64,000 bases of DNA from Thalassotalea ponticola (GTDB taxonomy: Bacteria; Pseudomonadota; Gammaproteobacteria; Enterobacterales; Alteromonadaceae): NCBI RefSeq assembly GCF_041379045.1, contig NZ_CP166871.1, forward strand, positions 2,666,001-2,730,000, read 5' to 3'. Of this stretch, positions 19,148 through 55,165 are shown piece by piece (the stretch's first letter is position 1; every line of letters starts with the position of its first letter). The translations under genes and the position numbers were made by a program. The notes beneath the pieces were generated by a model, which made no database searches, was not told the origin of the DNA, and worked only from the letters and a program-made list of their open reading frames with translations.

Positions 19148-19378
19148 CAGTTAATTAGTTCCTTAAATTAATTGTTACAGATGAGGTAACATCACAGCCT
19201 GTTTTATTGCGCTGTTCATCCAGCCCTCGTCATAACAAACACAGTTTACTCTGCACTTTTTATAAATGGATAAATTAGCAAACAAACTAAGACGCTGACA
19301 AGGGTCACATCAGCCATGAAATTAATCAATAATGAAGATTAATTTTCTCAATAGTATATATGCCGATGGTGGTTGAAG

Positions 19379-19571
19379 AGCTTGGTGATTGAAAATGCTA
19401 GCAATAGTTCAGCCGTGCGTTCACCCGAATGCAAGTTACTCTAAGCTCACGTTAACTAGAGCACCAAAAGCAAAACTTAAAACCGAATGCCCGTAAAGGC
19501 AAGGGATTTTGAATTTGAGCAATTCACCGACAAACGATTCAAATTATTGATTTCATTGACATCGACATGAA
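19379..19571 (+). pseudogene. Degraded relic of an integrase 3' end plus tRNA-Leu attachment site
   Basis: Nucleotides 19379-19460 are a decayed version of the integrase region that encodes its C-terminal LGGWKTLEMVQRYAHPNE (compare 59039-59125); CACCCGAATG and AGCTCACGTTAACT survive. Bases 19479-19571 match the tRNA-Leu 3'-fragment junction at 27571-27650: CCCGTAAAGGCAAGGGATTT, then CGATTCAAATTATTGATTT. This makes it a third, oldest attachment-site copy. Frameshifts and stops exclude a functional gene. Confidence 0.75.
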
Positions 19572-23287: not shown

Positions 23288-23536
23288 CTAACTCCTCGTT
23301 TGGTCATCGCTTTTTAAGCTAAGTATCAGTAGATAAACGATTGTTAGTTCAGCATCAGCAGTACGATTATTTTCTACTACATCGTTTAGCGTTACGACTT
23401 TATTCAATAGCTTTTTAGCCCAAGCTTGAGCCTTTCGTTTACTTATATCTAGGTGCTCTAGGTCATCGTACTTAAAGATGCCTGAAATAAATAATGTTGC
23501 GATAACGTCTTTATGGAATTGGCTAATTTCTTTCAT
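23288..23536 (-). CDS. 82-residue island protein, copy 1 (possible small DNA-binding protein)
   Basis: An all-helical small protein (HKDVIATLFISGIF, then KYDDLEHLDISKRKAQAW), of a length and pattern that could form a helix-turn-helix; no family is recognised. A near copy is at 53097-53345: the first 39 residues are identical and nine differences are spread over the rest. A distant relative of similar pattern is encoded at 55614-55781. It is divergent from fumC with about 330 bp between them. Regulation of island functions is a guess. Confidence 0.65.
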   Translation of the reverse strand: MKEISQFHKDVIATLFISGIFKYDDLEHLDISKRKAQAWAKKLLNKVVTLNDVVENNRTADAELTIVYLLILSLKSDDQTRS

Positions 23537-23865
23537 GAGTAAGTTCTCTGCTCTTTTTGATGTAAGAGCAATCTAGCTCACTTAATAAATTAACAAAGCT
23601 TAAAAAAGGCTCGAATTCTGTCTAATTTTAAAGTATTCAAAATAGTCGCCGTTAAGTGACGTTAGTTTTTCATTGGCTTTTCCTGTCCCCTGCGTGACTA
23701 CACGGTGAAACGCACAGATAGTTGGTAGCATTATACGATACGGTACAATATTGACCTGTTGGTAATATCACCTCCCAAGTTAAGCAAAGTTATACTGGTA
23801 ACAACATTTACTGATAGTGCGTTGGCTATAATGAGGTGACAATCACCTAATAACCGAGATAGTCC

Positions 23866-25251
23866 ATGGACGAGTTACCATCGCCGATACTTTGGGGTAA
23901 ACAAACAACACTATCATTAAAGTATTTTGATATTGGTGAGCACAAGTTTTCATCCGATTTCATCTATGCATTGGTTGAAATAAAACGTGCTTGCGCTGCC
24001 GTAAACTACGAGCTAAATGTTTTATCAGTATCGCAAATGCAAGCGATAGTTAAAGCGTGTGACGAGGTATTAGCCGGAAGCTTTAACGAACAGTTTCCCT
24101 TACGAGTCTGGCAAACCGGCTCTGGTACGCAAACGAACATGAACGTCAACGAAGTACTTGCCACAATAGCAAATCAGTTGTCTCAAAGCGGAGACACCGA
24201 TAACACTCATTGCAATGTGGAGCTGTTACATCCGAATGACCACATCAACCGTTCACAGTCGTCTAACGATGTTTTTCCAACAGCCATGCACATTGTTGTT
24301 AGTCAATGGACAGAAAGAAAATTACTCCCCGCAATTAACGTATTGCAGCAGCAACTGCGATTGAAACAGGGCGAATTTACCCGTGAATACTCTGTCGCGC
24401 GAACTCACTTAATGGATGCTATACCCATCGACGCAGGTGCCTTATTATCAGCCTTTGACAGTCAACTTGAATTGTCAAAAGTAGCAATAACGGATAGCTT
24501 GCAATATGTCTATCGGCTGGCCATTGGTGGCACTGCCGTTGGCTCTGGTGCTAATGCACCAAAGGCATTTGGCAAGATGGTCACCCATCAGGTTGCAGAA
24601 CGTTTACAGCTCCCTTTTACACAGGATGAAAATCTTTATGCTGCGGTGAGTGGCGAAGATGTCATGATCCGCTACAGCGGTGCGTTAAAGCAATTAGCTT
24701 CAGCCTTGTTGAAAATAGCTAATGATTTTCGCCTGCTGGGTAGTGGGCCTCGGTGTGGTTTAAATGAGTGGAAGCTACCCGCCAACGAACCTGGCAGCTC
24801 AATAATGCCAGGGAAAGTAAATCCAACTCAGTGCGAAGCTCTGAGCATGGTGTGTTTTCAAGTCTTCGGTAATGACCTTACAACGTCTCTAGCGGGCGCC
24901 AACGGTCAGTTACAACTTAACGCCTGTCGGCCGGTAATTATTCATAATGTGATGGAAAGTATCTCATTGCTAACCGACGCCATATTATCGTTTGCACACA
25001 ATGCAGTTATGGGGTTGGAACTCAACAGCGAACAAGTACAGCATAATATGCAGAAAAACTTATCGGTTATTACCTTACTTACCGAACAATTAGGCTATGA
25101 CATGGCGGCGAAAATCGTTCAAAAAGCACAGCATGACAATACCTCTTTAGCACTATCCGCTGAGTCACTTGGGGTATGTTCAGTAACAGAGTTTGAACAG
25201 TTGATAACAACCAAGCTTAAAGAGCAAAAGCGTAGTGATAATACTAACTAA
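23866..25251 (+). CDS. fumC: Class II fumarate hydratase, copy 1
   Basis: Interconverts fumarate and malate. The class II signature GSSIMPGKVNP is at residues 310-320; the substrate region HPNDHINRSQSSND (122-135) and the catalytic-loop ARTHLMDAIP are intact, so the enzyme looks functional. TQCEA after the signature separates it from aspartase. Its length of 461 is normal, though the N-terminus before LWGKQT is short. It differs from copy 2 at ten residues (for example N114T/A, T252/K, V266/A). It lies near the right end of the older island and shares position with copy 2. Confidence 0.93.
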   Translation: MDELPSPILWGKQTTLSLKYFDIGEHKFSSDFIYALVEIKRACAAVNYELNVLSVSQMQAIVKACDEVLAGSFNEQFPLRVWQTGSGTQTNMNVNEVLATIANQLSQSGDTDNTHCNVELLHPNDHINRSQSSNDVFPTAMHIVVSQWTERKLLPAINVLQQQLRLKQGEFTREYSVARTHLMDAIPIDAGALLSAFDSQLELSKVAITDSLQYVYRLAIGGTAVGSGANAPKAFGKMVTHQVAERLQLPFTQDENLYAAVSGEDVMIRYSGALKQLASALLKIANDFRLLGSGPRCGLNEWKLPANEPGSSIMPGKVNPTQCEALSMVCFQVFGNDLTTSLAGANGQLQLNACRPVIIHNVMESISLLTDAILSFAHNAVMGLELNSEQVQHNMQKNLSVITLLTEQLGYDMAAKIVQKAQHDNTSLALSAESLGVCSVTEFEQLITTKLKEQKRSDNTN

Positions 25252-25445
25252 GAGCCATTACTTAGCAAGCAATCTTGGTCTACATAGTTACTCTGATACC
25301 CTAGATAAGGTTAAAATGACACACATTACCAGCTAAGTTTGGCAAAGTATTGACGAGCCACCTTACTAGCGAGGTAAACAGACCATATGAAAGCCCCCAA
25401 TGTCACTGAAGCTTACAAGTATGCACTGTTTTCATGTGTAACAAC

Positions 25446-27139: not shown

Positions 27140-27514
27140 CTAAATCAGTTCATGACAGCGACAGCACATTAGGAAGGAATGCCTTTTCATCATCTGTAAC
27201 CTAACTGGTGCCATCAGCACCTCAATGCGCAAACACCGCTGATGGCGCTTAAAGAGCTTGGTGGTTGGAAAACGCTAGAAATGGTGCAGCGGTGCGCTCA
27301 CCCGAATGAAAGTTACTTAAAAGCTCATGTTAACAACGTGCACGTAAAACAAGTTATTCAAGGTGAAGTTAATGCGCTTACTGTGGCAAAGAAAAGTGTG
27401 TCAAAAAATAATGTGTCAAAAACGGGAGAAAAGTCAGAGTGTGGCAAAAAATCGTCACACTTGGAGGTTGTCACTGAGGACTATGTGATAATTGGTGAAC
27501 CCCAAAAACTAAAA

Positions 27515-27538
27515 AACCTGCTTAAAATCAGCAGGTTA
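27515..27538 (-). terminator. Copy of the tRNA-Leu terminator at the older attachment site
   Basis: AACCTGCTT-aaaatc-AGCAGGTT hairpin with an A run on its left (T run on the minus strand). The same element ends the intact tRNA-Leu at 59278-59304. Confidence 0.7.
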
Positions 27539-27540
27539 AT

Positions 27541-27597
27541 TATGGTACCGGAAGCCGGACTTGAACCGGCACGCCCGCAAAGGCAACGGATTTTGAA
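27541..27597. other. Attachment-site copy: 3' fragment of tRNA-Leu (left end of the large island)
   Basis: These 57 bases are identical to the 3' half of the intact tRNA-Leu gene (59309-59365 on the plus strand), from the CCA end through the variable loop into the anticodon stem. They then switch to unrelated sequence. This is the classic trace of integration at a tRNA 3' end and marks the left border of the 27.6-59.3 kb island. Confidence 0.9.
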
Positions 27598-27899: not shown

Positions 27900-29744
27900 T
27901 TAATTGGCTGTTTTAGTTAAATTCCTTATCTGCAATTCAATGTTGCTCTTTTCCTTAAGCTTTCTCTTCTCGTTCTTAATTATTTCCTCTTGTTTCTCTT
28001 GATATATATTCCTTTCACGCCCGATAACACTCAGACCGAATATTAAGGATAATAAGCTTACGAACAGAAAAAATGACATTGTACTAAACCAAGCAAACAC
28101 AGGTACGAGTTCCGTATTCATAGCTAGAACATTGGTTCCAGCCAGTACCACAGAAACGAAAATCGCTTTAACATTAAAGTTGTGATCCTTTTGCAAAGAT
28201 TCTTTAGCTCTAGATAAGTCAGTTATATCTCTTTCAACATGAGAAAGTTTATTGGCTAAGTCATCCTTAAGTTCCTTAACCTTTTCCGAATTTTCATGTA
28301 GCTCTCTTAAATCTTCAGCGAGCACATCATGCATTTTATCTAGTTTAAAAACGTCTCTCCATAATTCGTGAGCCATATTATGCAATGACAATTGGCTTGG
28401 TACTAAGGTTCTGTAATTTAAACGTAACTTTAATGCATCAACATAATACTGCTGCGTTTCATCATGCGACGTAAAGTCTTCGAACTTAAAGTGTAGGGCT
28501 TTATTTAGTAAAATATATTCATGAAGATTGATCAAAGATATTGGAAAGTATGTTTTTATTGCGTGCTTATTTATGAAGCTTTCGTCAAATTGTTCATTTT
28601 CCTTGGTTGAAGAGAGCTTTACAAATAATGCGCCCCCCTCTTGTGAGCAATAATGAACTTTGTTTTTTAAATCTGAACCTTTATTACAATTTACCAATTT
28701 ATCTGTGACTTGATATTTAGGGGTAAATTGTCGAGAAAATAAATTACCTAAATAATCTAACTCAGAATCTTTTACCATTTCATCTATATTAGCCGTAAAG
28801 AAAGAATGAAGACGTACTTTAGAAATAGACTCTTTATTTATTTTACTATCTAGGTTAACTAGTTGGTATGCAAGCTGGGTTAAATTGAATGCTACTGTTT
28901 GATGATTAATTTCTAAAAAACATTCTGTTTTTACTAAGTTATTTGCGAGTTGCGATAACTTTCGAGATTTAACCTTTTCCGTCAAGCTGTCATTTTTAGA
29001 GATCTCATCCCATGTATCTTCTGTAATAACTAATGGTGATACTTTCTGGGTAAGCTGAAAACCACGATTTTGTGCTGTTGAAAGTTGTTTGACACTGTGT
29101 GCTAACAAACCGAAGTTTGGACATAGACTTGTTTCTTTATCTTTGTAGGTAACATAGAAATTTATAAAGCATATGCCACTCGGAATAAGTGTCAATAAAA
29201 CCTGATTTATTTGCACAGAAATATCGGAACCTTCTTGCTGTAAAGAAAGTAATGACTCCTGCTTTTGTTCTAAAATTAGAGACGGTGACATTTTTTCATC
29301 AAGCCTCAATTTTATATTGAGGCCATTTAATATATTCAATGCTCCAGAACTTAACTCTAATACTTGAATTTCGTTGTTATACAATTGGTAATTGAATAGT
29401 CCTCGAACCCTTTGGTGAAAGTCATCCAAATTGAAATACACTTTATCTTTTGTTTTTTTCCAAACGCTTGAATCATTGAACAAGTTTTTTAGTAAAATGT
29501 GTTGTTCAGCTTCAATATTCTTCGTTGTTAATAGGTTAAATAGTGAAGTTAGTGTCGGAGATTGCTGTATTTCATTACGCAAAGAATCAAATACTGAAGT
29601 GTTAAGTAACAATTCATAAAATTCGTAAAGATCTTTTTGCTTAGACAAACCTGTATCAACAGCAACGGTCACAATATGCTGATGTGATTTATTGGATTTT
29701 TTATTTGACAGATGTAGCGGTGCCGTCATTAAAACGTCTTTCAT
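27900..29744 (-). CDS. Membrane protein with CorA-like C-terminal topology, last gene of the ZorAB/CARF operon
   Basis: 614 residues. A large cytoplasmic N-terminal part (1-450) has no motif I recognise. A long coiled coil (about 455-535, rich in Glu, Lys, Leu) leads to two closely spaced membrane helices (about 540-560 and 568-590) and a basic tail. The loop between the helices reads AMNTELVPVF, close to the GMN loop of CorA magnesium channels, with Ala in place of Gly. This helix-TM-(x)MN-TM layout suggests a divergent CorA-type channel. Some type III CRISPR systems use a CorA-like effector, which makes the CARF neighbours notable. It starts 3 bp after the preceding gene, so it is operon-coupled. 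Family assignment is inference. Confidence 0.6.
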   Translation of the reverse strand: MKDVLMTAPLHLSNKKSNKSHQHIVTVAVDTGLSKQKDLYEFYELLLNTSVFDSLRNEIQQSPTLTSLFNLLTTKNIEAEQHILLKNLFNDSSVWKKTKDKVYFNLDDFHQRVRGLFNYQLYNNEIQVLELSSGALNILNGLNIKLRLDEKMSPSLILEQKQESLLSLQQEGSDISVQINQVLLTLIPSGICFINFYVTYKDKETSLCPNFGLLAHSVKQLSTAQNRGFQLTQKVSPLVITEDTWDEISKNDSLTEKVKSRKLSQLANNLVKTECFLEINHQTVAFNLTQLAYQLVNLDSKINKESISKVRLHSFFTANIDEMVKDSELDYLGNLFSRQFTPKYQVTDKLVNCNKGSDLKNKVHYCSQEGGALFVKLSSTKENEQFDESFINKHAIKTYFPISLINLHEYILLNKALHFKFEDFTSHDETQQYYVDALKLRLNYRTLVPSQLSLHNMAHELWRDVFKLDKMHDVLAEDLRELHENSEKVKELKDDLANKLSHVERDITDLSRAKESLQKDHNFNVKAIFVSVVLAGTNVLAMNTELVPVFAWFSTMSFFLFVSLLSLIFGLSVIGRERNIYQEKQEEIIKNEKRKLKEKSNIELQIRNLTKTAN

Positions 29745-29747
29745 AAA

Positions 29748-31592
29748 TTAATATCGTCCGAGTTCTTCAATTATAGATATTGTACCGATAACAGTTCGAC
29801 GTATATCATGAACACCTTTATTCTTAGAATCAATAAAGCAAACAAATTTGTTTAGCTCTGGGAGAGTAAGCTCGCTTATATAAAAATTTTCACCATCCAT
29901 AAGTGCTGATTTTTGTGCTTCAGTCATTGAGTTGAGACAATCGAGTCTCGCTTTAACTTTGACTTTATGGCTTCGTTCATTGTGTAAAGACTTCTTAAAC
30001 GATACATAACTTATTGAGTAAGATAATTCTGTGTCACTTACCGCTTTACTCAATTCGATATCGTACATGGGTCTTTTGTATTCTCTTTGCCAGTGATAAA
30101 TGTCTGCATACCTTTCAAGCTTTTCATGCTCGTTCAGTGGAGTAGGAATACCTTCTTTAACTCTTTTGTTGATTGGGACGATTTTCTTTAGCTCTTCCGA
30201 ATACTTTCTAGCTATAACGATTCTTTTTACATTTCTATCGACTGCGACGTCTTGTGTTGTTCTTAGTTTCTCTTCTAGAGCGGAATGCCAATACTTCTTG
30301 TGGTCATGCTTAAACATTGGCTTCAACGTCAATATCTCATTGATATTTTTAAACCTGTTTTTCAATAAAGCCTGGCCTTCAATAGAACTTTCTAGATAAA
30401 AACGACTATTATGATAATTATCTTTTTGTTCATTAGGAATGTCTTTAGGTGCTCTAAAAACTTCAACACAAATCAGGTTCTTAATCTTAAATATTCCGAC
30501 CTCAACAGACAGGTCATCTTGAAATTCAAATACGAAATCTTCGATATTTGATAGCTTTTCTTTTGTGATTTGGTATGAACTTGGTGGTAGGTAAACCACT
30601 AAATCACTCATCTGAGTTTGATAATATCCAAAGAATCTCATTCTATCAAAAAGTTGATTTCTTTCAGGTTTAGATATGTTGATATGCGACTGAGATCTAC
30701 TACCTATTATATGGATGATATTTTGAAATTTTGAATAATGTGGAATGTTGCTTATTTTTGATATGTATATTGATACTTGCTTATCTAATTTTAAGCTAAT
30801 TTGCTTTTCCGAATTACAATTTTCACCAAGCCAATCAGCTAAGTCATCTCCTATATTATCTTCATTAATATAAACTTTCTTGTTGCTATTCTGGTCATCA
30901 TTTTTCGTGAACGGCTTTTCAGCAAAACACCAATACATATCCTTAAGAGATTGAGCTAATTCCGTGTCATTAATTTGTGACAAATGTGTGACTAGCCAAG
31001 CTGATTGTTCGTCATCCAAAAGGTTTAAATTACGTATAGTAAGTGAAACTAGCTTTTCTCTAACTTGGTTTGAAAGTAGTAATTTGGAATTTTCAAATAA
31101 ATCAAAAAGAGAGCTTTTTTGATTGAGAGCAAGTTTGATTAAATCAGGCCACCTTTTCATTTGAAGAAGAAAAGCAATTCTCAAGACGACTGACATTTCA
31201 TTGGCTTTGCTATTCAATCCTTTAAACGCTTGGATTAAGCTCTGAGATGGAATAGTGAGCTCATTTTCCAAAGAGCGAACAATACAACTTGCTGCTATTT
31301 GAGTGGCAAGTTTACTGTTAATTATCGCCTTCCACAATAATTCAGATGAGCTTAATTGCTCTTCTTCAGGTGTGGTTGACCATTGTGTTGGATCACAAAA
31401 TAGCATAAGCCAATCAATGGGTGATATCTTATCTGTCTCCTGAGATTTTATTAAAGAGACGATAGTTTTCACGTCTCTTATCGGGAACTCGATTTCGCCT
31501 AGTTCGAACATTTCAGTATACTTTGAAGTATTTAGGTCCTTAGCAACACCACTAATTGCAGGGGGTTTAGGAATGGAAGGGATGGCAAACAT
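29748..31592 (-). CDS. Large soluble protein of the ZorAB operon (position of ZorC)
   Basis: 614 residues, no signal peptide and no membrane helix. The N-terminal third is helical (ISPIDWLMLFCDPTQW, a run of Leu-rich helices); the middle (about 285-400) is mixed, including FDRMRFFGYYQTQMSDLVVYLPP; the C-terminal part is basic. I recognise no helicase, HNH, nuclease, kinase or nucleotidyltransferase motif. It follows zorB by 7 bp, the place held by ZorC in type I Zorya, so it may be the cytosolic DNA-binding or sensor partner of the motor. Homology to ZorC (EH-signature family) is possible but not shown. Confidence 0.6.
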   Translation of the reverse strand: MFAIPSIPKPPAISGVAKDLNTSKYTEMFELGEIEFPIRDVKTIVSLIKSQETDKISPIDWLMLFCDPTQWSTTPEEEQLSSSELLWKAIINSKLATQIAASCIVRSLENELTIPSQSLIQAFKGLNSKANEMSVVLRIAFLLQMKRWPDLIKLALNQKSSLFDLFENSKLLLSNQVREKLVSLTIRNLNLLDDEQSAWLVTHLSQINDTELAQSLKDMYWCFAEKPFTKNDDQNSNKKVYINEDNIGDDLADWLGENCNSEKQISLKLDKQVSIYISKISNIPHYSKFQNIIHIIGSRSQSHINISKPERNQLFDRMRFFGYYQTQMSDLVVYLPPSSYQITKEKLSNIEDFVFEFQDDLSVEVGIFKIKNLICVEVFRAPKDIPNEQKDNYHNSRFYLESSIEGQALLKNRFKNINEILTLKPMFKHDHKKYWHSALEEKLRTTQDVAVDRNVKRIVIARKYSEELKKIVPINKRVKEGIPTPLNEHEKLERYADIYHWQREYKRPMYDIELSKAVSDTELSYSISYVSFKKSLHNERSHKVKVKARLDCLNSMTEAQKSALMDGENFYISELTLPELNKFVCFIDSKNKGVHDIRRTVIGTISIIEELGRY

Positions 31593-31599
31593 TTAAACC

Positions 31600-32244
31600 T
31601 CACTTTAAATCAAAAAGAGTATGCAATTTTTCCAACCCTTTAAATTGAAGGCGGAACATTACTTTTCTGTCAGACCTTTCATCATTTTCTTGATTAGCAT
31701 TAAACTCACCTCGCCCAGCAACCAGTAATTTATCAAGAAACTGATATTTATAATCAAAATCTTTGTGATCGATATTTTTATATACGCTGTTGGCTCGTCT
31801 TAACGATAAAAGCATATTCGCATTTTCCGAGCCGCTACTCGATGTGTGTCCTTCGATAATAACCCTGACTATTTCTTCTGAGGCTCCAGGAGTTTCAAAA
31901 ATAACGCGAGCGTAGTGTGGGACGAAGTTGTCTAAAAACGACTGGCCATCCTCTCTTAGTTCATGTTCACTCAAATCAAATAAAACGGAGTCCATAATTG
32001 ATATATCTCCCGTTTCTTGATTAATTTCAGCTTCAATACCGCTTTCTTTTAACATTTCACCGAGCGCCGTTATGATAACGACGCGCTGGTTAGTTTGCTC
32101 TTCTTGCTGTTCGGTGATTTTAACTAGTGTTGTTACCAACAAAAGAGCAAAAATCATCAAAGCTACAGACATAAGATCGCCAACAGATAACCAAGTACCA
32201 GATTCATCTGGTTTGGTTGAGTTGTTAAATCGATTAGCTAGCAT
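31600..32244 (-). CDS. zorB: ZorB-type MotB/OmpA-like stator protein
   Basis: A 214-residue inner-membrane protein anchoring a ZorA-type motor to peptidoglycan. There is one membrane helix (about 21-42, SVGDLMSVALMIFALLLV) with Asp23 at the place of the MotB proton-binding Asp. The periplasmic OmpA-like domain has VRVIIEGHTSSSGSENANMLLSLRRA and ENDERSDRKVMFR, the peptidoglycan-binding pattern. The gene overlaps zorA by 11 bp. With no flagellar genes nearby and a long-tailed partner, a Zorya-type defence role is far likelier than motility. Confidence 0.85.
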   Translation of the reverse strand: MLANRFNNSTKPDESGTWLSVGDLMSVALMIFALLLVTTLVKITEQQEEQTNQRVVIITALGEMLKESGIEAEINQETGDISIMDSVLFDLSEHELREDGQSFLDNFVPHYARVIFETPGASEEIVRVIIEGHTSSSGSENANMLLSLRRANSVYKNIDHKDFDYKYQFLDKLLVAGRGEFNANQENDERSDRKVMFRLQFKGLEKLHTLFDLK

Positions 32245-34162
32245 TTTTAATCTCTCTTACCTGTGGCATATTTTCTTTATTGGATGAAACACCACCATTG
32301 CTCGCCACTACAATCGCACTTGCTGCCGCTGTTAGGTTACGCATGATTGTTGCTGTCGAGTCATCAACTTCTTTAAAGAATCTTTCTGTTCTATCAGTTG
32401 TATTTTCAAAGTAATTGGTTAAAGAAGATTCTAACTTCTCGATTGTTTGACCAAAAGCATCCGTTGCTTCTGTATAACTCTTATTAAGAGCCACAACCCC
32501 CTCATTGTTTTGTTGAGTTTGAGTGATAAGGTCAACTACTTGAGACTCATTAAAAATGGATACGGCTTGAACGAGGTTATTTAGGGTTTCAGTGCTATTT
32601 ACAATTTTTTCGACTGCTTTTTCGGTTTTTTCTACGAAAATATTGCGTTGGGTGAGGTCGCTTGTATAAGCATCTTTGTATTGGTCGATCACTCTAAGTA
32701 ATCCATCTTCTTGTTCACTTAACAATCCTTTTAGATTGTTATTTTGCTCTCCAAAGAACACCGTTAAGTTTTCTTGATAACTAACTCTAAATGCCTCGAG
32801 CTCTCGTTGAAGAGCATCTTTGATGTTGTTTACTTTCTCATCAATGTCACCTAGTCCTTTTTCAAGATTAATACGAGCACTGTCCATTACTTTTTCAGCT
32901 TCATTAGCACTACTAATAAATGCCTCTCGTTGGGTTTGCATTCCGGCTTGCGCATCTCTCAATGATTCAGCGATTTGCTCGCCAACCATTTCTAGAGTTC
33001 CTCTTGTTTCTTTTTGGAAGGTTTTTAATGTTTCATGCAAATCAGAAGAAAATTCTTTCATCTCCTTCAATGTATCAACTTGGAATTCTTTAATTGTTTC
33101 AATAGAAGAGCCTAAACTCTCGGTAACACTTCCAAGTTGAGAAGTTAGAGCTGAAATCGACTGATTACTTTCTTTGACGCTCAAAGAAACATCTTGGATC
33201 TGCTCAGCTACCGGCTTGATTATTTCATCACGTAAACTGCCCGTTAATTTTTCAATGATCTCTTGTCCACTTTCAGCTTTAATCTTGGCTAGAATATGAA
33301 GTTCATCAGTCATTTGACTTAATAGAGGCTTAAACTCTTCTTGCATGACATCACGAATATTAGAGCCTATTTTGTGGCCCATTACATCAGGGTTAAAATC
33401 TGATAAGGCGTTTACTACTTGGCCAAATTGTTCACCTGCGCTTTTTAATGACTCCATTGATTGTGCCTGCATATTAGCAAGCTTATCTTGCTTTTCAGGA
33501 TCTAAACCTTTTAAATACTCGATTGGGCTGACCAGATATAAATAGTCAGCAAGCTCTGCTTTTTTCGCTAAGAAAAGAGACATTTTAGCTTTGGTGAAAA
33601 GGGAGTGGACGGTCATAAAAATAGCGCCACATGCTAGTCCAATTAAAGATGTACTAAATGCAGTCTTCATGCCATCAAGCAAGCCTGTAGCACCTGCTAT
33701 AAGAGCATTTGAATCAGCACCACTACCTAGGTTTAAAGTTGAAAGACCAAGGCTAATACCAATAAATGTACCTAAAATACCTAGCGATGTAAGGAAAGAT
33801 GGTACGAAACCGAAATTTGATTCCTTAAAAGGAGGTAATATTTGCTCGAAACGCTCAACAGCTAAAAGCTTATTGTTTCGAACTATTAAGTCGATGGTGT
33901 TTTCATCACCCTCTTCTACAAGCAATATTTGCCTGGCAAGTTCATATTTCTCTTGCTCTTCAATAGAAACGGTTACATCACCAGAAGTAGCTTTTTGCTG
34001 CATACTTTTTATGAATTCAACTCTAGAGTTGTAAGTTTTTTTCTTATTTATGAATAGTCTTATTTCTAATACTAGAAAAATCATCAAGAATGAAATGGTG
34101 GTGATCATAAAACTCATGGAAATAGTGTCTTTCCATGCTGTTTCTATAAACTCAATAAACAT
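32234..34162 (-). CDS. zorA: ZorA-type MotA/ExbB-like motor protein with long coiled-coil tail
   Basis: 642 residues. One membrane helix lies near the N-terminus (about 15-38); the MotA/TolQ/ExbB core has two more (FVPSFLTSLGILGTFIGISLGL at about 119-140; TAFSTSLIGLACGAIFMTV at 167-185). From about 210 to 610 there is one long helical, coiled-coil tail. In Zorya, ZorA and ZorB form a proton-driven motor whose cytoplasmic tail signals phage entry to effectors. The start codon overlaps the stop of the small upstream gene (TAATG). The three-helix core plus long tail distinguishes it from MotA, TolQ and ExbB. Confidence 0.85.
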   Translation of the reverse strand: MFIEFIETAWKDTISMSFMITTISFLMIFLVLEIRLFINKKKTYNSRVEFIKSMQQKATSGDVTVSIEEQEKYELARQILLVEEGDENTIDLIVRNNKLLAVERFEQILPPFKESNFGFVPSFLTSLGILGTFIGISLGLSTLNLGSGADSNALIAGATGLLDGMKTAFSTSLIGLACGAIFMTVHSLFTKAKMSLFLAKKAELADYLYLVSPIEYLKGLDPEKQDKLANMQAQSMESLKSAGEQFGQVVNALSDFNPDVMGHKIGSNIRDVMQEEFKPLLSQMTDELHILAKIKAESGQEIIEKLTGSLRDEIIKPVAEQIQDVSLSVKESNQSISALTSQLGSVTESLGSSIETIKEFQVDTLKEMKEFSSDLHETLKTFQKETRGTLEMVGEQIAESLRDAQAGMQTQREAFISSANEAEKVMDSARINLEKGLGDIDEKVNNIKDALQRELEAFRVSYQENLTVFFGEQNNNLKGLLSEQEDGLLRVIDQYKDAYTSDLTQRNIFVEKTEKAVEKIVNSTETLNNLVQAVSIFNESQVVDLITQTQQNNEGVVALNKSYTEATDAFGQTIEKLESSLTNYFENTTDRTERFFKEVDDSTATIMRNLTAAASAIVVASNGGVSSNKENMPQVREIKNAS

Positions 34163-34605
34163 TATTTTAAATACTCCTTCATAAAGTCTTGAATTTCGCC
34201 TTCGAAATATTTTTTAATCTGACTGGCGGATAGTGCTTTTTTTGCTCTTGCCCAAGGTAAGTGGTCGGCATCGTCCTTACTCCCCTCGATATACTCGTAA
34301 TATGCTTTTTTTAATTCATCGTTATCCATAATAATTTTTTCACGCAACTTAATTCCTAGAAGCGGGTAGTCCGGCCGACTATTGATGTCGTCATAAGCAA
34401 GGTATGTTAGCTCTGGATGATTTGTTAGGAGCTCTATTTGCAGTATGGGTTTTAATTCCCTGAGCTTTAACGCAATTAGTGAATCTCTGCCCCATTGTGA
34501 TTGCGCATACTTCCATGACCTATTTACGCGATTTATTAAACGTACATATTCACCAAGGGTTAGTTTACGCCTATACTGCATTTTGTTGATTTCTGAGAGT
34601 TCCAT
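34162..34605 (-). CDS. Small unknown protein coupled to zorA
   Basis: 147 residues, helical, basic N-terminal half (YRRKLTLGEYVRLINRVNRSW) and acidic middle (DELKKAYYEYIEGSKDDADH); ends FMKEYLK. No recognised domain, no membrane segment. Its stop codon overlaps the zorA start by one base, so it is translated together with the motor. It lies between the CARF gene (39 bp) and zorA. It could be an adaptor or antitoxin-like protein; that is a guess. Confidence 0.6.
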   Translation of the reverse strand: MELSEINKMQYRRKLTLGEYVRLINRVNRSWKYAQSQWGRDSLIALKLRELKPILQIELLTNHPELTYLAYDDINSRPDYPLLGIKLREKIIMDNDELKKAYYEYIEGSKDDADHLPWARAKKALSASQIKKYFEGEIQDFMKEYLK

Positions 34606-34644
34606 ATAAACTTGCTTATTGTATTGATAATTTGATTCGTAGGA

Positions 34645-35847
34645 TTAGCCGATAAATCGAACAATTGACTGGTCGATGTTTATCCCAAAATAGTTGAAAT
34701 TCTTATTTTTTCCGTCAGATTTTTTATATGATTTGCTGAGTGAATCGATATCGTAATGTTCAGCTATATTCTCTGGAAGTTCATTTCGAAGAGCTTGGCT
34801 TATTTGATTTTTTCTGTCTGTAAAAAAAGATTTCTTCAAGCCATGCCTTAAGCCTTCAACCTCACTGTCTTTTAAAATAAGGTGCTTATTTTCTATCACG
34901 TAAATAGCATTTTTAAGGTTTTCCAATTTGTATTCTTTGCCTTCTATTTTCAGTCGCTTCTCTATATACAAAATGGCAAGAGTTTTATCTGATGTCGAAG
35001 GACAATCAAAACCTTCATGACCATTTAATAAGTCATCGACCATTATTAAATAAAAAGCCATGTTAGCTTTGGTTAATTTGACTTTTACACCTGAGCAGAT
35101 GAGTTCGCAACTTGTTACACTAATATCAAGGGATAATGGACGGTTTATGATCTCGAATACCAATTCAGTGTCTTTTATGGATATAGGGTGTGTTAGAAAT
35201 CGCTTTGGTAAACTTGGCCTTAGCTGTACGTAAGGAATGTTTGATAAAGTGACATGTGCAACCTGTGAATTGAGCACACCATGTACCGTGTTTATTTTAT
35301 TTTTATATGGTGTTGGATAAAAAAAGTCGCAATGTTCAAAATCAGGAGAAACGAATACATGGCTTAACGTATCTTGAGGTCTTGCAAATATACTCATGGC
35401 ATAGCTTAAGTAAAATGTCATAGTCTTCCGGCCTCCAGCAAGAGAAGCATGTAAAACCTGGCTTTCACAGCTTGTCAGACGCTTTATGTTATCGAGCAAG
35501 CATTGAGCTATAGCATTCATCTCTTTCGCTGTGGTTACGTCTGATATTGTATTACCACAACTACTTTTAGGCACCCAAATATCATTTTCTTCAAACTGAA
35601 TTGGAGGTAAATCATAATCTTGAGTTAATTTTTCAAGTATAGTGAAGCCATTATCTTTAGGTTCTAAGAGCGCTTTGGATATCTTCTCTTTGCAGGATGA
35701 TGTTGTAACGATTTTGATATCGTTTATAACTATATTTCGGTGCTTGAATAAAGCGTAAATAGATTCGCTAACAATCTGTGGTGAACCGCCAACAAGCGCC
35801 AATAAAGTATGGCGTGTGACTCCCAAATCCTTTTGAGATGTAGGCAT
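34645..35847 (-). CDS. CARF-domain protein of the Cas_NE0113 / TIGR02584 type
   Basis: 400 residues. The N-terminal 190 residues carry the full family signature: ALVGGSPQIVSESIYAL (about 17-33), then SLAGGRKTMTFYLSYAMSIF (about 135-154), and RPQDTLSHVFVSPDFE. Family members bind cyclic oligoadenylates in the CARF pocket and are annotated as CRISPR-associated ring-nuclease/Csm6-type proteins. The C-terminal 200 residues lack the RxxxxH HEPN motif as far as I can see. It is the first gene of the operon that continues into zorA and zorB. There is no cas10, cas7 or CRISPR repeat in this window. No Shine-Dalgarno sequence is evident. Confidence 0.82.
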   Translation of the reverse strand: MPTSQKDLGVTRHTLLALVGGSPQIVSESIYALFKHRNIVINDIKIVTTSSCKEKISKALLEPKDNGFTILEKLTQDYDLPPIQFEENDIWVPKSSCGNTISDVTTAKEMNAIAQCLLDNIKRLTSCESQVLHASLAGGRKTMTFYLSYAMSIFARPQDTLSHVFVSPDFEHCDFFYPTPYKNKINTVHGVLNSQVAHVTLSNIPYVQLRPSLPKRFLTHPISIKDTELVFEIINRPLSLDISVTSCELICSGVKVKLTKANMAFYLIMVDDLLNGHEGFDCPSTSDKTLAILYIEKRLKIEGKEYKLENLKNAIYVIENKHLILKDSEVEGLRHGLKKSFFTDRKNQISQALRNELPENIAEHYDIDSLSKSYKKSDGKNKNFNYFGINIDQSIVRFIG

Positions 35848-36052
35848 AAAAATACAACTTAAATCTTTATTATTGTGGTTATTTATCGTACTGACATTTT
35901 ACTTAACGTCGACGCATCTTATTTGATTCCCAAATTATTGACAAGTAATTTACATAAATAAAAAAAATAAATACCATTGAAGGTATAGGTTTAGCATTTT
36001 GGGGGCACCTTTGATATCTTTAGCGAAAAAATAACAGATAATTAAAGTTGTA
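35848..36052. promoter_or_regulatory. Divergent promoter region of the CARF genes
   Basis: 205 bp, very AT-rich, between the oppositely oriented CARF and Card1-like genes. TTGACA at 35938-35943 is followed by AT-rich sequence (TACATAAAT) that could serve as a -10 for the Card1-like gene. Control of both genes from here would coordinate sensor and nuclease. Confidence 0.4.
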
Positions 36053-37201
36053 ATGAAAACCTGCCATATTAGTTTGTTAGACGAACAACACACGAATGCT
36101 TTAACACCACTACTCGACCCAGCTATTCCTTCAACCCGAACAGTGTTTTTAATAACCACTGATCAAAAAAGACATATAGAAAACCTAAAGGCTTTATTAG
36201 AGCCACGCGGAATACAAGTTAGTTACCACGTACTTCCAGAAAGATTGAGCACTGGTGGTATGATAGATGAAATTACCGAGATTTTTTCTGGAGAGTTAAA
36301 TAAAAATGAAGATGAACAGGTTGTATTTAATGCAACTTGTGGAAGTCGTCGTTTAGCCTTGATTACTTATGACATTGCTAGGACTTTGGAAATCGAGTCT
36401 TACATTATAGAGTCTGATTTAGACGCTCTTTATTGGTTATATCCTGAGGAAAAACCAAATAGTGAGCTTGCTGATAAAATCAAGCTTATAGATTATTTCA
36501 AAGTGCATGACATCCATGTTGGGATGGTTTCCAATATTAGAGGAGTTCTTCCTAAAATAAGGGAACTAGGAAAAAAATGGACTAGTAGTGCAGTACGCTA
36601 CTCTGCGGCTCTGGGAATGCTAAATTATTTAGCATCTTCAGCAGATAACGGTGAACTAAAGTCAGAGCCTATGAATAACTCAATGATGTGCAACTCATCA
36701 TTACAAGATTTACTTGATGATCTAGAATACATTGGCTTTGTCGAGCGTTCTGGGAAGAGTTTAATATTCTCTAGTGAGGAAACTAGATTTTTTGCTAACG
36801 GTGGCTGGTTAGAAGAATATGTTTTTGGAACTATCGTTAAGCTAAAAAAAGAACTACCAAGACTTCAAGATTGTGCTCAAGGTATGGAGGTAATTAGAAA
36901 AGTTGGAGCAAATAAAGTTCAAAATGAACTTGATGTTGTATGCCTAAAAAACAACAAGCTCCACATAATTGAATGTAAAACGAAGAAATTCTTAGGTGGT
37001 GAAGGAAACGAGGTGATATATAAACTTGATTCGATTTCTGATCTTCTTGGTGGTAGTCATAGTAGAGCCCTTTTTGTGAGTTTAAAAAAGATTCGGTTTG
37101 CTGAAGATTTACGAGCGAAAGAGTTGGATATCACCTTCATGGGGCCTGAGCAACTGCCGAATTTAGAAGGTCATCTTCGGAACTGGCTTCGCCAAGCCTA
37201 G
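36053..37201 (+). CDS. Card1/Can2-like CARF nuclease (DUF1887 family)
   Basis: 382 residues. The N-terminal CARF-like Rossmann fold (1-150) has NATCGSRRLALITYDIA (93-109), corresponding to the ligand-loop motif of DUF1887. A winged-helix-like middle (about 165-240) is followed by a PD-(D/E)XK nuclease: FFANGGWLEEYVF (247-258), NELDVVCLKNN (291-301) and the catalytic HIIECKT (304-310), all acidic and Lys residues intact. Card1/Can2 proteins cut nucleic acids when cyclic tetra-adenylate binds the CARF domain. Here the gene faces a CARF/ZorAB operon and no type III CRISPR complex is present. A weak ribosome-binding site precedes the ATG. Confidence 0.85.
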   Translation: MKTCHISLLDEQHTNALTPLLDPAIPSTRTVFLITTDQKRHIENLKALLEPRGIQVSYHVLPERLSTGGMIDEITEIFSGELNKNEDEQVVFNATCGSRRLALITYDIARTLEIESYIIESDLDALYWLYPEEKPNSELADKIKLIDYFKVHDIHVGMVSNIRGVLPKIRELGKKWTSSAVRYSAALGMLNYLASSADNGELKSEPMNNSMMCNSSLQDLLDDLEYIGFVERSGKSLIFSSEETRFFANGGWLEEYVFGTIVKLKKELPRLQDCAQGMEVIRKVGANKVQNELDVVCLKNNKLHIIECKTKKFLGGEGNEVIYKLDSISDLLGGSHSRALFVSLKKIRFAEDLRAKELDITFMGPEQLPNLEGHLRNWLRQA

Positions 37202-40116: not shown

Positions 40117-40136
40117 GATTCCTTGCTCTATGTCTC

Positions 40137-40226
40137 TAGCTCGCTCACAGCAGCCGTTAGCTACTGACCATTAATCAATAACTTACGCTATTTAGCCGAC
40201 AGGCGCAAATGTGCCATAAGCGGAAA
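40137..40226. repeat. attC-like intergenic repeat
   Basis: About 90 bp between two array genes with the shared words GCTCGCTCACAGCAGCCGTTAGC, CATTAATCAATAACTTACGCTA and GACAGGCGCAAATGTGCCAT. The same words recur at 41290-41390 and 43263-43350. Their arms are weakly complementary, as in integron attC sites, but no exact core boundary could be fixed. Confidence 0.6.
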
Positions 40227-40598
40227 TTAAGTACCGTATTTTATTTGAACCATTACTGCGATGCAGGATAAATAAATTATAAATATTGAAATAAAGGAGA
40301 AGAAATAAGTTAACTCTACTTTTCTGTTAAAACTTAATAATTGTAGAGTGTCGTTGTTTTGAACGTTTTCCCATCTCGATTTCGAAATGTAGAATTTCGC
40401 TTTCTTTATTGAAGTATTGATATCGTTATTCAAAATCCCTCTTTTCGAAAAATATTCAGGGTAAGCTTTTTCATTGTCATCCCTCATTTTATCTGCGATT
40501 TTTTTGCGATTAGCAAGAGATAAAATACCAGTAATAATCATCACAACAAATAAACATCCGATAATAATTTCTGCTATTTCAAGGTAAGCTTCGCCCAT
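40227..40598 (-). CDS. Cassette-array membrane protein (123 residues)
   Basis: Two membrane helices (IIIGCLFVVMIITGILSL near the N-terminus; LTYFFSFISIFIIYLSCIAVMV near the C-terminus) with a charged segment of about 60 residues between. No family recognised. It lies between array repeats; a GGAGT ribosome-binding site precedes the ATG. Confidence 0.65.
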   Translation of the reverse strand: MGEAYLEIAEIIIGCLFVVMIITGILSLANRKKIADKMRDDNEKAYPEYFSKRGILNNDINTSIKKAKFYISKSRWENVQNNDTLQLLSFNRKVELTYFFSFISIFIIYLSCIAVMVQIKYGT

Positions 40599-41247: not shown

Positions 41248-41289
41248 AACATTACTTCCTTGTATGAATACATCAGTTTATTTGAATGA

Positions 41290-41390
41290 CTGTAGATCGC
41301 TCGCAGCAGCCGTTCGCCACTGGATCTATTAATCAATAACTTACGCTACAACTGCGACCGACGCAAACGTGCCACTAGCGGGCAATAAGC
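41290..41390. repeat. attC-like intergenic repeat
   Basis: Shares GATCGCTCGCAGCAGCCGTT, AATCAATAACTTACGCTAC and CGACGCAAACGTGCCACTAG with the repeat at 40137-40226. It lies between the 197- and 174-residue array genes. Confidence 0.6.
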
Positions 41391-43262: not shown

Positions 43263-43365
43263 GCTTATCGCTCGCAACAGCCATTCGCTACTGACCATTA
43301 ATCAATAACTTACGCTATTTAACCGACAGGCGCAAATGTGCCATTTATTAGCTTGTTAGGTATAC
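43263..43365 (-). other. attC site of the 43.36-43.62 kb cassette
   Basis: Its left core on the minus strand, GTATACCTAACAAGC, is the complement of the first bases of the same cassette (GCTAGGTATAC, one base off GTTAGGTATAC), as expected of a gene cassette. The rest is the common array repeat. The right-hand core is degenerate. Confidence 0.7.
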
Positions 43366-49421: not shown

Positions 49422-52400
49422 TTAGTCACTTAAAGTTTTGCCAGCTAGAGTGGTGCTTTTGCTAAAGCAAAGTTTATCCTGACCAGTGCTTATTAGTGCC
49501 TGGTTAAGCTGTTCTAGGATATCCTCACTAACCTCACTTGTATTTATCTTCAATAGAAGACCATCAAGGCCGAAAAATTCAGAATATACCTCTTTGGCTT
49601 TCAAGAGGTATGTGATCAATTTAGCCAGAGAGTTCGAGTGATGCACAGCCCAATCTTTATTATTGAGACTATAAACCAGATGAGAGTGACGTAGATCAGG
49701 AGCAGGCATTTGAATAGCAACCTCAACTAACTCATCAAAAAGCTCTGGAATACTTCCCAGCAGTCCTAACATAGCTCCTGCCTCTTGTGCATCAAGAGGA
49801 AGTGGCCTTCCATTAATACGATTCAACCAATAATCTTTCAACCAGTTTCTCCAAACCGCTACTCGAGCTTCAGCAGGTTTACCAGAAAGGTGACTATATA
49901 ATTTTCTGGCTACTATGCTTCTATGTCCGGCTGATAAGTTATTCAATATTTGGGGTAACCACTCAATATGTGGATCTTCAATATGCCAGAATGCGACTGC
50001 AACATAGTGATCAATAAAAATATCTTCTTTCCCAGGTAATATTTCAAAAAGTCGCTCTCGCATTTTCTCAAAATAAGGTTTTACACTCGCGAATGAAGCT
50101 GCTTGAATGCCACCGCTAGTAAATAGCCCATCCCAAGCTTGCTTTGCTTGATCAACACTAGGATTGAGCAAAGGTAATAAACGCTCAATAGTCCACTGAG
50201 CATTTACGTGATATAGAAAATTGATTTGCCTACTCACAAGTGGAATCGTATAGATTGTTTTTGGATTTTCGGTATTAACCAACGCGCTGATCTGATCAAG
50301 ATACTCAGTATACTGACTTTCTTGACCTAACTTCACTATAATATCTAATGCTGAGATCCAATAACTTGCAATTTCACCTTCTAGTGTATTAATAGATTGG
50401 GTAATCCAGTCTATAGTATCTCCTGATAGAGGCGCTTGCGATAAACTACAGCTCTTCCATATATTCAGCACTACTCCGTTAGCTTTATGATGTACTTCAC
50501 TTAACGAGTCGAATGCATCGCATTTCAGATGCCCCTCTAGAGCTTTTACAACTGCCCGAGGATGATGCTGATAAAGCCCTGGCAATGAAAGTATGGATAT
50601 GACTTGGTGAATGGAACTATCATCACTTGGCCATTTGTTAAATGATGCGATTAAGCTGGGCCAAAGATCATTTTCCCAATCTTTAATGTTTTCTAGATAG
50701 AGGCAAAATTTCAAAGCCCATGTAGGTTGCTCAATGGCAGCTTGTTGCACTACTTGAATGAGGTGCCAACGATCGAAGTGAGCAGATTGCTGAGGCTTAA
50801 ATTTTTTTATTTCTTCAAACCAATCGTTAGTTTGCTTGCCTAAGAGTTCGGTAACACTCCAAGGGCTATTTAAATCATTAGAGGCCAAAATGCTCGAATG
50901 CCACATATTAAGGTCTGGATATTCTCGTGCTGTCAGATCAGGATATTTCCTTTTTAAAGCGTTCATTTGGATTTTCAGCAACTCGCAGTTTTCGTCAGCT
51001 TGATGTAAAACATACAGCCATTGCCAACTTTCAAACGCTTGTTGTTCGGCATTTAAGTCTTCTTTAGAGCTATTAGATTTTAAAATTGTATGAATTAGTT
51101 GATGTCGGTCTGCCCCTCCTAGGTTCGGGTAGAGTTCACGTATCAATTCAAATATTTCATGCCTCAAATCTGATTTATCAATTCCACATTGCTGTCCCCA
51201 ATTTAACTTGGTTGCCGCACTTAAGTATTTATTTTTCCTCAGGCCATGAACAGCTATGCGAGATACTAAAACATTATCTGACTCAAGGTGCTCAATACAC
51301 CAACGTGTAGCCCAAGCTGGATCAGTATCAATACATGCCTCGATACAGTCTCTCATTGCATGAATAACTACATCAATAGCTCTTCTATCACTATCCTGCT
51401 CATGCTCTTCAATGGCAGAGCGTGACCAACTATCAATTCTCGTCGCGGAAATTCTTTTCATCCAGACACTTCGACTTTCTAAAGTATCCTTAAACCATAA
51501 GCAGCCTTTATTGAGTAGATCTTTGCAAATAAATTGTATTTCTGGTTTAAGTAACTTTTGCCAGACTTCGTTTAAATTCCAATGCGGTGAATGTATATCA
51601 AGCTCAACTTTCCATATAGGATCTTTGTTGGCGCTTGAGTAGTCTATTCCTTGATTTATACGAACATAACGTTTAGCTAATTTAAAAAACAGTCTAAGTA
51701 CGTGATACCTCATACCTGACTTTGAGGCTTCAGTTGCTAAAAATTGTAGGCCATGTATGTTAGGATGATGAGGGCAAAGGTGAAGTAGCAAATCAATCCA
51801 TTGCTTAAGTTGTGAAACATTTTCACTTGTATGGATTGTTCGCACTAGGTTAAACCAAAGCCTGCTGCTGATCTGATGACGCTCCTTTGCAATCAACTCA
51901 AATAAAACTTCCGGTTTACTGCAAACAAACGTATTAAGAAGCCAACTTTCAAAACAGAGTGAAATTTCATCAACATTCTCTCTGCGAAACAAAGGTTCCA
52001 AGACTTTTTGTTCATACAACCAAAAAGCCCATTTTTCAGATGACGCTTTTGACGTAAAGTATCTAACTTTTGAAATATCCTTTAAAGCATGTTGAATAGT
52101 ATGCTCTGCAACAATATCAAGCGGCCCATCTTGTTCAGCAATAAAGCCTATATGGGTCTGCCAATCACTAGGCTGACGAGATAAGAATTCTGCTAATTTA
52201 AGGGTGCACAAATCTAACTTTGTATAGTCGCCAACATCCTGCTGTGGAAAATATACAGGCGTTATACCCAGACTGCGCCATTTTGATTGATTTCTTTCTT
52301 GAGATTTACCCTCTAAGGCAAACCGCTTTCCTTGTGCCTTATCAGGTAATGCTCGGGCTAAATAGCTCATTACCACATCATCATGGCTATAGCCGACAAA

Positions 52401-52967
52401 GAGCACAGTATAGGCTTCAAACATCTTAACCAAAAATCGACTTGCCCAACCATCTGCCAAATAAGCTTTACCAAAACCACGATCAGTAATGATGATACTT
52501 TTAGGGTGAGTGTTTGCACCATGAATATGAACAATACCTTCAAAATCATCGCCAATTGGTAGCGCTGGTGCAGTAAATATTTCGGGCTTAGTTGACCACA
52601 GTAAGTCTGCTGCATCAGTGAAAAGAGGGTCGAAATTCGTCGTAACAATTCTCACTTTTTCACTTGAAGGGAAAAGGTTTAACAAATGTTGGTGTAAATA
52701 TTTAGGTTTACTATTAATTTCTTCCAAGGAACTTATTGCTGCTTTTTGAATAACAAGTTCTTCTGGAGATAAGCTACCAAGAAACTGATCTAGCGGTTTT
52801 TTTGGTTCCTTACCAAATCCATTTGCAATATCTCCGGCCAGTTGCTCAAAACTAGGTAAATTAGCAGGAGCCCCCATCGAAACACCTGCACCAGCAAAAA
52901 TAACCAGTTTACCTTCAATTGCCGCATCAACTAATTGAGATGGAAAGTCCACTTCTCCAAGAATCAT
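49422..52967 (-). CDS. Large SIR2-domain protein, probable NAD-depleting anti-phage effector
   Basis: 1181 residues. The N-terminal SIR2 domain (about 1-270) has GAGVSMGAP (26-34), VTTNFDPL (108-115), the catalytic-His region GIVHIHGANTHPKS (144-157) and VLFVGYSHDD (188-197). The remaining 900 residues are Trp- and Leu-rich helical repeats, possibly the DUF4020 type. This layout matches DSR1/DSR2-type sirtuins, which sense phage proteins with the C-terminal repeats and then destroy NAD+. No partner gene is adjacent. The assignment to defence is by architecture and island context. Confidence 0.75.
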   Translation of the reverse strand: MILGEVDFPSQLVDAAIEGKLVIFAGAGVSMGAPANLPSFEQLAGDIANGFGKEPKKPLDQFLGSLSPEELVIQKAAISSLEEINSKPKYLHQHLLNLFPSSEKVRIVTTNFDPLFTDAADLLWSTKPEIFTAPALPIGDDFEGIVHIHGANTHPKSIIITDRGFGKAYLADGWASRFLVKMFEAYTVLFVGYSHDDVVMSYLARALPDKAQGKRFALEGKSQERNQSKWRSLGITPVYFPQQDVGDYTKLDLCTLKLAEFLSRQPSDWQTHIGFIAEQDGPLDIVAEHTIQHALKDISKVRYFTSKASSEKWAFWLYEQKVLEPLFRRENVDEISLCFESWLLNTFVCSKPEVLFELIAKERHQISSRLWFNLVRTIHTSENVSQLKQWIDLLLHLCPHHPNIHGLQFLATEASKSGMRYHVLRLFFKLAKRYVRINQGIDYSSANKDPIWKVELDIHSPHWNLNEVWQKLLKPEIQFICKDLLNKGCLWFKDTLESRSVWMKRISATRIDSWSRSAIEEHEQDSDRRAIDVVIHAMRDCIEACIDTDPAWATRWCIEHLESDNVLVSRIAVHGLRKNKYLSAATKLNWGQQCGIDKSDLRHEIFELIRELYPNLGGADRHQLIHTILKSNSSKEDLNAEQQAFESWQWLYVLHQADENCELLKIQMNALKRKYPDLTAREYPDLNMWHSSILASNDLNSPWSVTELLGKQTNDWFEEIKKFKPQQSAHFDRWHLIQVVQQAAIEQPTWALKFCLYLENIKDWENDLWPSLIASFNKWPSDDSSIHQVISILSLPGLYQHHPRAVVKALEGHLKCDAFDSLSEVHHKANGVVLNIWKSCSLSQAPLSGDTIDWITQSINTLEGEIASYWISALDIIVKLGQESQYTEYLDQISALVNTENPKTIYTIPLVSRQINFLYHVNAQWTIERLLPLLNPSVDQAKQAWDGLFTSGGIQAASFASVKPYFEKMRERLFEILPGKEDIFIDHYVAVAFWHIEDPHIEWLPQILNNLSAGHRSIVARKLYSHLSGKPAEARVAVWRNWLKDYWLNRINGRPLPLDAQEAGAMLGLLGSIPELFDELVEVAIQMPAPDLRHSHLVYSLNNKDWAVHHSNSLAKLITYLLKAKEVYSEFFGLDGLLLKINTSEVSEDILEQLNQALISTGQDKLCFSKSTTLAGKTLSD

Positions 52968-55060: not shown

Positions 55061-55165
55061 TAACCATGAATTGATACGCCACTTCTCGTCCTACATAGTT
55101 ACTCAGATACAACGGGTCAGATTTAATTAACACACATTACCAGTAAAGCTTGCCTCGATTGCTAG

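Follow-up and report, generated by a model that had tools for sequence, protein, structure and literature searches.

The stretch analyzed here (the window, 64,000 nucleotides of Thalassotalea ponticola contig NZ_CP166871.1) contains an operon of six minus-strand genes, at 27900-35847, which is very probably a variant of the Zorya phage-defence system that has no ZorD and carries a small subunit not described before. In the direction of transcription, the genes encode a CARF protein, a small conserved protein, ZorA, ZorB, ZorC and a protein of 614 residues (to be referred to as X), and ZorD is missing. The core formed by the small protein, ZorA, ZorB and ZorC is present in 26 other genomes, and these loci were all fetched. 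The gene content, the recurrence of the core, the lack of a detectable ZorD, and the conservation of the motor Asp residue and of the CARF pocket residues were observed directly. A broader reading, to which we give about even chances, is that of a phage-defence operon on a genomic island at a tRNA-Leu gene, in which the ZorD-less core works with exchangeable partners, X would provide the output and the CARF protein would tune the system.

An initial annotation of this region had described seven open reading frames, six on the minus strand and one divergent, and their order and coordinates are confirmed here (Table 1). The successive gaps in the operon, counted from X, are 3, 7, -11, -1 and 39 bp, in agreement with the tight packing (gaps of 39 bp or less, with overlaps) noted in that annotation. 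The seventh gene, for a Card1-like nuclease, starts divergently, 205 bp beyond the CARF gene of the operon (intergenic stretch 35848-36052). All seven reading frames are uninterrupted. The region 27900-37201 has a G+C content of 35.2%, and its flanks are richer, with 45.7% (left) and 45.2% (right).

Table 1. Features of the operon and its surroundings (positions in the window).
Feature	Position	Strand	Evidence
Island left end: integrase 3' end and truncated tRNA-Leu	27173-27597		Direct repeat of 58955-59364
X, 614 aa, in ZorD's place in the operon	27900..29744	-	N-terminal part without a family; hydrophobic C-terminal region
ZorC-like (EH-signature) protein, 614 aa	29748..31592	-	PADLOC PDLC00618, E 7.6e-23
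ZorB, MotB/OmpA-like, 214 aa	31600..32244	-	PADLOC PDLC00609, 208 bits
ZorA, MotA/ExbB-like with long cytoplasmic tail, 642 aa	32234..34162	-	PADLOC PDLC00597, 346 bits; PF01618
Small conserved protein, 147 aa, directly upstream of ZorA	34162..34605	-	Homologue abuts ZorA in 27/27 modules
CARF protein, NE0113/CARF5 family, 400 aa, heads the operon	34645..35847	-	PF09623, 5e-32; TIGR02584, 182 bits (cut-off 81)
Card1/VC1899-like CARF and PD-(D/E)XK nuclease	36053..37201	+	PF09002, 1e-36 (over cut-off)

The family matches bear out the initial proposal that this operon encodes a Zorya-type motor newly combined with other genes. The ZorA- and ZorB-like proteins are both recognized by PADLOC profiles, and a profile of the ZorA clade matches the solved ZorA chains 8vvn and 8qyy. 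The Asp residue of the ion site is kept in ZorB, with Asp23 aligned to Asp26 of 8qyd_F and Asp24 of 8vvn_B. Two 614-residue proteins had been listed as unknowns; one of them is a divergent ZorC, while X is indeed without a family. The window ZorC has no match in Pfam, and two of its homologues carry PF15611. Four ZorC homologues, at 35-38% identity, were found in a database search, among 7999 candidates scored.

PADLOC files all three profiles under type I Zorya (ZorABCD), which has ZorA, ZorB and ZorC in the same order as the window. On the other hand, the ZorD helicase-nuclease of type I has no match among nine window proteins (PADLOC profiles), X or other genes stand in its place, and there is an extra small protein before ZorA. 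The ZorAB motor is shared with type II Zorya (ZorABE) as well. However, the HNH nuclease ZorE is not found in the window operon (Pfam and PADLOC), and the ZorA and ZorB of the window match profiles other than those of type II. ZorF (DUF3348) and ZorG (DUF2894) of type III Zorya also have no Pfam or PADLOC match in the operon.

The relatives of the core were found with two profiles. The ZorC profile (five proteins) matches 9 of 394 genomes of the order, T. ponticola itself among them, and the other eight encode the small protein, ZorA, ZorB and ZorC in the same order. In the family to which one relative (G099) belongs, the ZorA profile (eight proteins) matches 22 of 329 genomes, and in the window's family T. 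ponticola alone (1 of 83). Its four matches among 398 genomes of the phylum are T. ponticola and three genomes found previously (G065, G099 and G114). The 26 genomes consist of eight obtained via ZorC and 18 more via ZorA (19 stretches from those 18), and they hold 27 modules, with two in G926. The spacing between the small gene and ZorA is from -41 to +21 bp in all 27. One module is spread over two contigs (G780), and another contig stops within ZorC (G870). The same four core genes, including a small subunit of its own, are present on a Nostoc plasmid.

Three ZorD proteins from other Zorya loci, named by PADLOC, served as controls. They match one another with 715-1341 bits, and none of the core stretches fetched from the 26 relatives is matched; the sole other match of the controls is a helicase of Nostoc, with 16 bits. 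A ZorA search at the level of the class matched 98 of 369 genomes, mostly weakly, and five among its best-scoring loci (L064-L068) were fetched as a comparison. ZorD is present in three of these, with L065 and L068 outside the PADLOC check, and the small-protein profile matches none of the five. The lack of ZorD would also be expected if the operon were a decayed type I Zorya that has lost this gene and is inactive. This is very unlikely, however, in view of the seven open and tightly packed frames, the conserved Asp of ZorB, and the recurrence of the ZorD-less core, with its own small subunit, in the 26 genomes and on the Nostoc plasmid.

No further relative was confirmed when genome contigs were scanned with ZorA or the ZorC alignment, or viral contigs with the small protein or ZorC. 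None was found in searches of plasmids (ZorC, X, the small protein and Card1) or phages (ZorA). These single-sequence searches are insensitive, as the small-protein search of plasmids missed the Nostoc copy, which is matched by the profile with 140 bits. A second clade of the core is formed by L131-L135 and the second module of L130. In L131-L135, the core is followed by a ZorA-sized gene, a ZorB-like gene, a gene for 321-331 aa, and another ZorB-like gene (PADLOC names are for L131 only).

The small protein has no family over the cut-off in Pfam, TIGRFAM-type and PADLOC profiles, and no relative in the PDB. Residues N28, W31, K32, K52, Q56, H115 and P117 are invariant in an alignment of 29 of the 30 distinct sequences (L125 was omitted). 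X has no family match in the same profile collections. Its only homologue among the 7999 candidates scored is P0002, with 34% identity. Hydropathy peaks are located at residues 523-541 and 546-577 of X, with a similar layout in P0002, and this C-terminal region may form a two-helix membrane hairpin, as judged from the sequence. A weak peak at residues 182-200 is not present in P0002. For X, for ZorC and for the small protein alike, the longest contig listed with the homologues has 14,976 bases, and therefore the set including X probably recurs once. We tentatively regard X as the effector of the operon, at somewhat less than even odds.

The genes around the core were also compared among the relatives. 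A type II Zorya operon (ZorA2-ZorB2-ZorE2; ZorA2 and ZorE2 are PADLOC-named in L060) is located directly upstream in 19 of the 26 genomes and runs straight into the core. The T. ponticola genome has a type II operon of its own, ZorA2-ZorB2-ZorE2, at 277316-280913, 2.4 Mb from the window operon. On the 3' side of ZorC, the relatives have CARF5, a 113-aa protein, an HsdR-like type I restriction gene, or Druantia III-like genes, and HsdM and HsdS come next where tested (L058 and L137). Islands with Zorya II and Druantia III are already known in E. coli, as described in PMC12458937 and PMC13192584, and several relatives also have the two systems near each other. In comparison, the relatives add the ZorD-less core, CARF5 and the HsdR-like gene. 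The available text of PMC13192584 has no CARF and no ZorC, and the one CARF passage in that of PMC12458937 is in the reference list.

The TIGR02584-type assignment of the window CARF protein in the initial annotation is upheld, with a score well over the cut-off and a PF09623 (Cas_NE0113) match. The match to the PADLOC CARF5 model is nearly full-length, and the pocket motif GGRK is kept, with G138, G139, R140 and K141 invariant in 35 proteins. Other NE0113/CARF5 proteins are annotated 'CRISPR-associated ring nuclease Csm6'; unlike these, the window copy is located in a motor operon and not by cas genes. Plasmid records also label such NE0113-type proteins CRISPR ring nucleases. On a Vibrio casei plasmid (L024, 8007-11777), a CARF5 gene annotated as CRISPR ring nuclease Csm6 stands beside genes for an ADP-ribosylglycohydrolase and a metallophosphoesterase, and no cas gene is otherwise annotated in that stretch. 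The same trio is found in L144 and L141, the latter probably being the L024 plasmid.

CARF5 is present in the fetched stretch of 10 of the 26 core-bearing genomes, and is directly 3' of ZorC in eight loci, at 9-133 bp. The HsdR-like gene is directly 3' of CARF5 in eight loci; seven of these have spacings of -1 to 36 bp, and the eighth one of 118 bp. Where CARF5 lies between ZorC and the HsdR-like gene, the latter is the closer of the two in six of seven loci. HsdR may therefore be the partner of CARF5, and a motor coupled to nucleotide-gated effectors, as put forward in the initial annotation, becomes one of several readings. The remaining 16 of the 26 relatives have no CARF5 in the fetched stretch, which would speak against a link, yet in 7 of the 22 core-bearing genomes of one family (that of G099) it lies 24-55 kb away. 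PF09623 is found in 41 of the 329 genomes of this family, including 16 of the 22. For 15 of these 16, the distance between CARF5 and ZorA was computed, and it is within 10 kb in eight and 24-55 kb in seven, always on one contig; the remaining genome, G780, has 101 bp between ZorC and CARF5.

These arrangements raise the possibility that CARF5 is a mobile accessory of many defence operons, with hsdR or Druantia as its partner and its adjacency to the motor reflecting island traffic. The next gene after CARF5 is HsdR-like in 8 of the 10 loci (only an 86-aa HsdR fragment in L117), and G862 has CARF5-HsdR-HsdM-HsdS (the Hsd genes are confirmed by Pfam) and lacks the motor core over the 19 kb fetched. 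CARF5 also adjoins Druantia III genes, as well as the ADP-ribosylglycohydrolase and phosphoesterase genes. However, the motor operon of the window begins with the CARF gene and has no hsdR next to it, CARF5 follows ZorC in G044 in a locus that lacks an HsdR-like gene, and CARF5 and ZorA share a contig within 56 kb in all 15 genomes computed. We consider a mobile accessory unlikely, though a serious alternative.

Cas10 was searched for with an alignment of five Cas10 proteins. It is positive in all eight family genomes whose CARF5 is classed as type III-linked and in the T. ponticola genome; four of these nine supplied sequences for the alignment, and five are independent. No Cas10 is detected in 34 of 43 CARF5-bearing genomes (41 of the family, G044 and T. 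ponticola; 33 of 41 in the family alone), nor in any of the 10 genomes with CARF5 beside the core. PF22335 was dropped as a test for Cas10, as it matched 12 of 12 genomes, most probably through diguanylate cyclases.

Among 49 CARF5 proteins placed in a tree, a single clade (100/99) unites 38 stand-alone proteins, separate from those of type III systems and almost wholly within one bacterial family. This tree omits L056:142 (a partial copy of L069), L143:8557 and two parts in L149. In a second tree, with 36 of the same 49 rows, the window CARF is placed with type III proteins (97/94). The AU test allows it to join the stand-alone proteins (p 0.078) and rejects its union with the motor-linked subset (p 0.008), which was picked from the first tree. 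From this placement, the link between CARF and motor either arose separately in the window or is old and blurred, and a separate recruitment is the probable one.

The initial annotation had placed the operon outside any CRISPR system. CRISPR genes were not noted within the operon itself. However, a type III-D locus is present on the one contig of this genome, at about 2.017-2.040 Mb, which is roughly 0.65 Mb from the operon (about 2.69-2.70 Mb). It encodes a GGDD Cas10, Cas5, Cas7, Cas1 and Csx16 (by profiles) and has an array of 19 repeats. TIGR02578 has no match to Cas10 in this genome, though Cas10 was found there by other profiles. The genome thus has a Cas10, and the lack of a CRISPR system does not hold genome-wide. 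The locus also has two further CARF5 genes and two Card1-like genes, one identified by PADLOC and one by the window protein (25% identity).

The CARF and Card1-like proteins of the window could thus be trans-acting effectors of this type III-D system, gated by the cyclic oligoadenylate of its Cas10, with the motor as a mere neighbour. Both belong to families that serve type III systems, the III-D Cas10, Cas5 and Cas7 profiles are all matched in the genome, and the 36-row tree places the window CARF together with type III CARF5 proteins. On the other hand, the locus already carries its own CARF proteins and hence does not plainly own those of the window, which are encoded on a separate island and not inside a type III cas locus. 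In addition, the CARF and small genes share a strand and are 39 bp apart, and no Cas10 is detected in the 10 genomes in which CARF5 stands beside the motor clade. Gating by the type III-D system is therefore judged improbable.

The divergent gene was correctly described as a DUF1887/Card1-like nuclease in the initial annotation. Besides PF09002, the protein matches the solved VC1899 (1xmx) over nearly its full length (E 1.5e-65), the closest solved chain, and is also similar to the Can2 and Card1 chains. Its CARF_Card1 match (2e-4, 21.9 bits) is below the cut-off of 24.6. The CARF and PD-(D/E)XK domains are shared with the Card1/Can2/VC1899 nucleases. In comparison with these, the window nuclease is located away from type III genes, and its gating by cyclic oligoadenylate is putative. 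It is probably an adjacent, separately expressed unit.

The hybrid system favored in the initial annotation, in which the motor senses the phage and a cyclic nucleotide gates the CARF and Card1-like proteins as joint effectors, would account for the adjacency of the genes, the conserved CARF pocket and the resemblance of the nuclease to the solved VC1899, Can2 and Card1 chains. Of the two CARF genes expected to recur near ZorAB homologues, however, only CARF5 does so. The Card1-like gene is found in none of the fetched stretches of the 26 relatives, which argues against a fixed system made up of the motor and both CARF proteins. Moreover, the window CARF is outside the clade of CARF5 proteins that adjoin motors elsewhere, a group chosen after the first tree. 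Scans with family profiles assigned none of the operon proteins to a nucleotide synthase family (CBASS and mCpol synthases were not searched for). We regard this hybrid as quite improbable.

ZorAB complexes have been solved as 5:2 ion-driven motors and proposed to bring in nucleases via the ZorA tail, and a ZorB D24N mutant was used, according to PMC11890865. For the ZorD-less variant, we infer every step of the action, as well as the roles of X and CARF. ZorA5B2 would be located in the inner membrane, with ZorB gripping the peptidoglycan. Disturbance of the envelope by a phage would lead to ion flow and rotation of the ZorA tail, and the small protein and ZorC would relay the signal to a partner bound near this tail. 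The partner would be X in the window and perhaps the adjacent ZorE or HsdR-like nucleases in the relatives. X probably works at the membrane. The most likely role of the CARF protein is to bind a nucleotide ligand and adjust expression or activity. An effect on transcription is predicted as the family has no C-terminal effector; a transcriptional role was predicted for such NE0113 proteins in PMC4012209. The chances that CARF is a regulator are just short of even.

Several observations weigh against this picture. ZorA is split in one relative (G110), and ZorA2 is split in two in another (G870). X has no match in the fetched stretches of the 26 core-bearing genomes, and consequently its role as effector leans on one distant homologue. 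The enrichment of PF09623 in core-bearing genomes (16 of 22 vs. 25 of 307 other genomes of the same family; Fisher p 7.7e-12) overstates the evidence, as the islands share descent and are not independent events. The other 6 of the 22 have no PF09623 at E 1e-10, and the CARF protein is therefore inessential to the core. In addition, the branch of the window CARF is long and lies outside the clade of stand-alone CARF5 proteins.

A ZorABC-type core without ZorD, with partners that vary, indicates that the Zorya sensor is separable from the known nucleases. The roles of ZorC and the small subunit, and the hand-over from the motor to varied outputs, can therefore be asked about. The NE0113 ligand also becomes a testable question, with most carriers in one family having no detectable Cas10. 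A further possibility, which we hold to be less likely than its alternatives taken together, is that the stand-alone CARF5 proteins of the one clade and, separately, the CARF protein of the window have left CRISPR and are now nucleotide-gated controllers of ordinary operons for defence (the ZorD-less motor, type I restriction and Druantia III), responding to a messenger or phage metabolite not made by Cas10, and here would gate a new Zorya with a membrane-protein output. A literature search, which was not exhaustive and is no proof of absence, found no description of the ZorD-less core, the small subunit or the CARF5 link.

The operon is located at the left end of a genomic island of about 31.8 kb at a tRNA-Leu gene, in a genome that is one contig of 3,352,441 bases (the window spans 2666001-2730000). 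The island is defined by the tRNA-Leu direct repeat and two phage-integrase genes (PF00589, within 56266-59527). The two repeat copies are 89.9% identical over 425 bp (self-BLAST), and the intact tRNA-Leu, at 59310-59396, is beside the right copy. The same island encodes a 1181-aa protein (49422-52967, minus strand) that matches Dsr1 profiles (E 4e-48), a label that we take to denote SIR2-type defence. A 2-kb duplication (23295-25341 and 53104-55152, 95.6% identity) carries an 82-aa gene and a fumarase-like lyase gene (PF00206), and a third copy of the integrase-end repeat is found at 19362-19473; these suggest tandem islands at tRNA-Leu. Finally, repeats of about 80-100 bp at 40130-40231, 41286-41389 and 43267-43344, between small minus-strand genes, are possibly integron-like cassettes.

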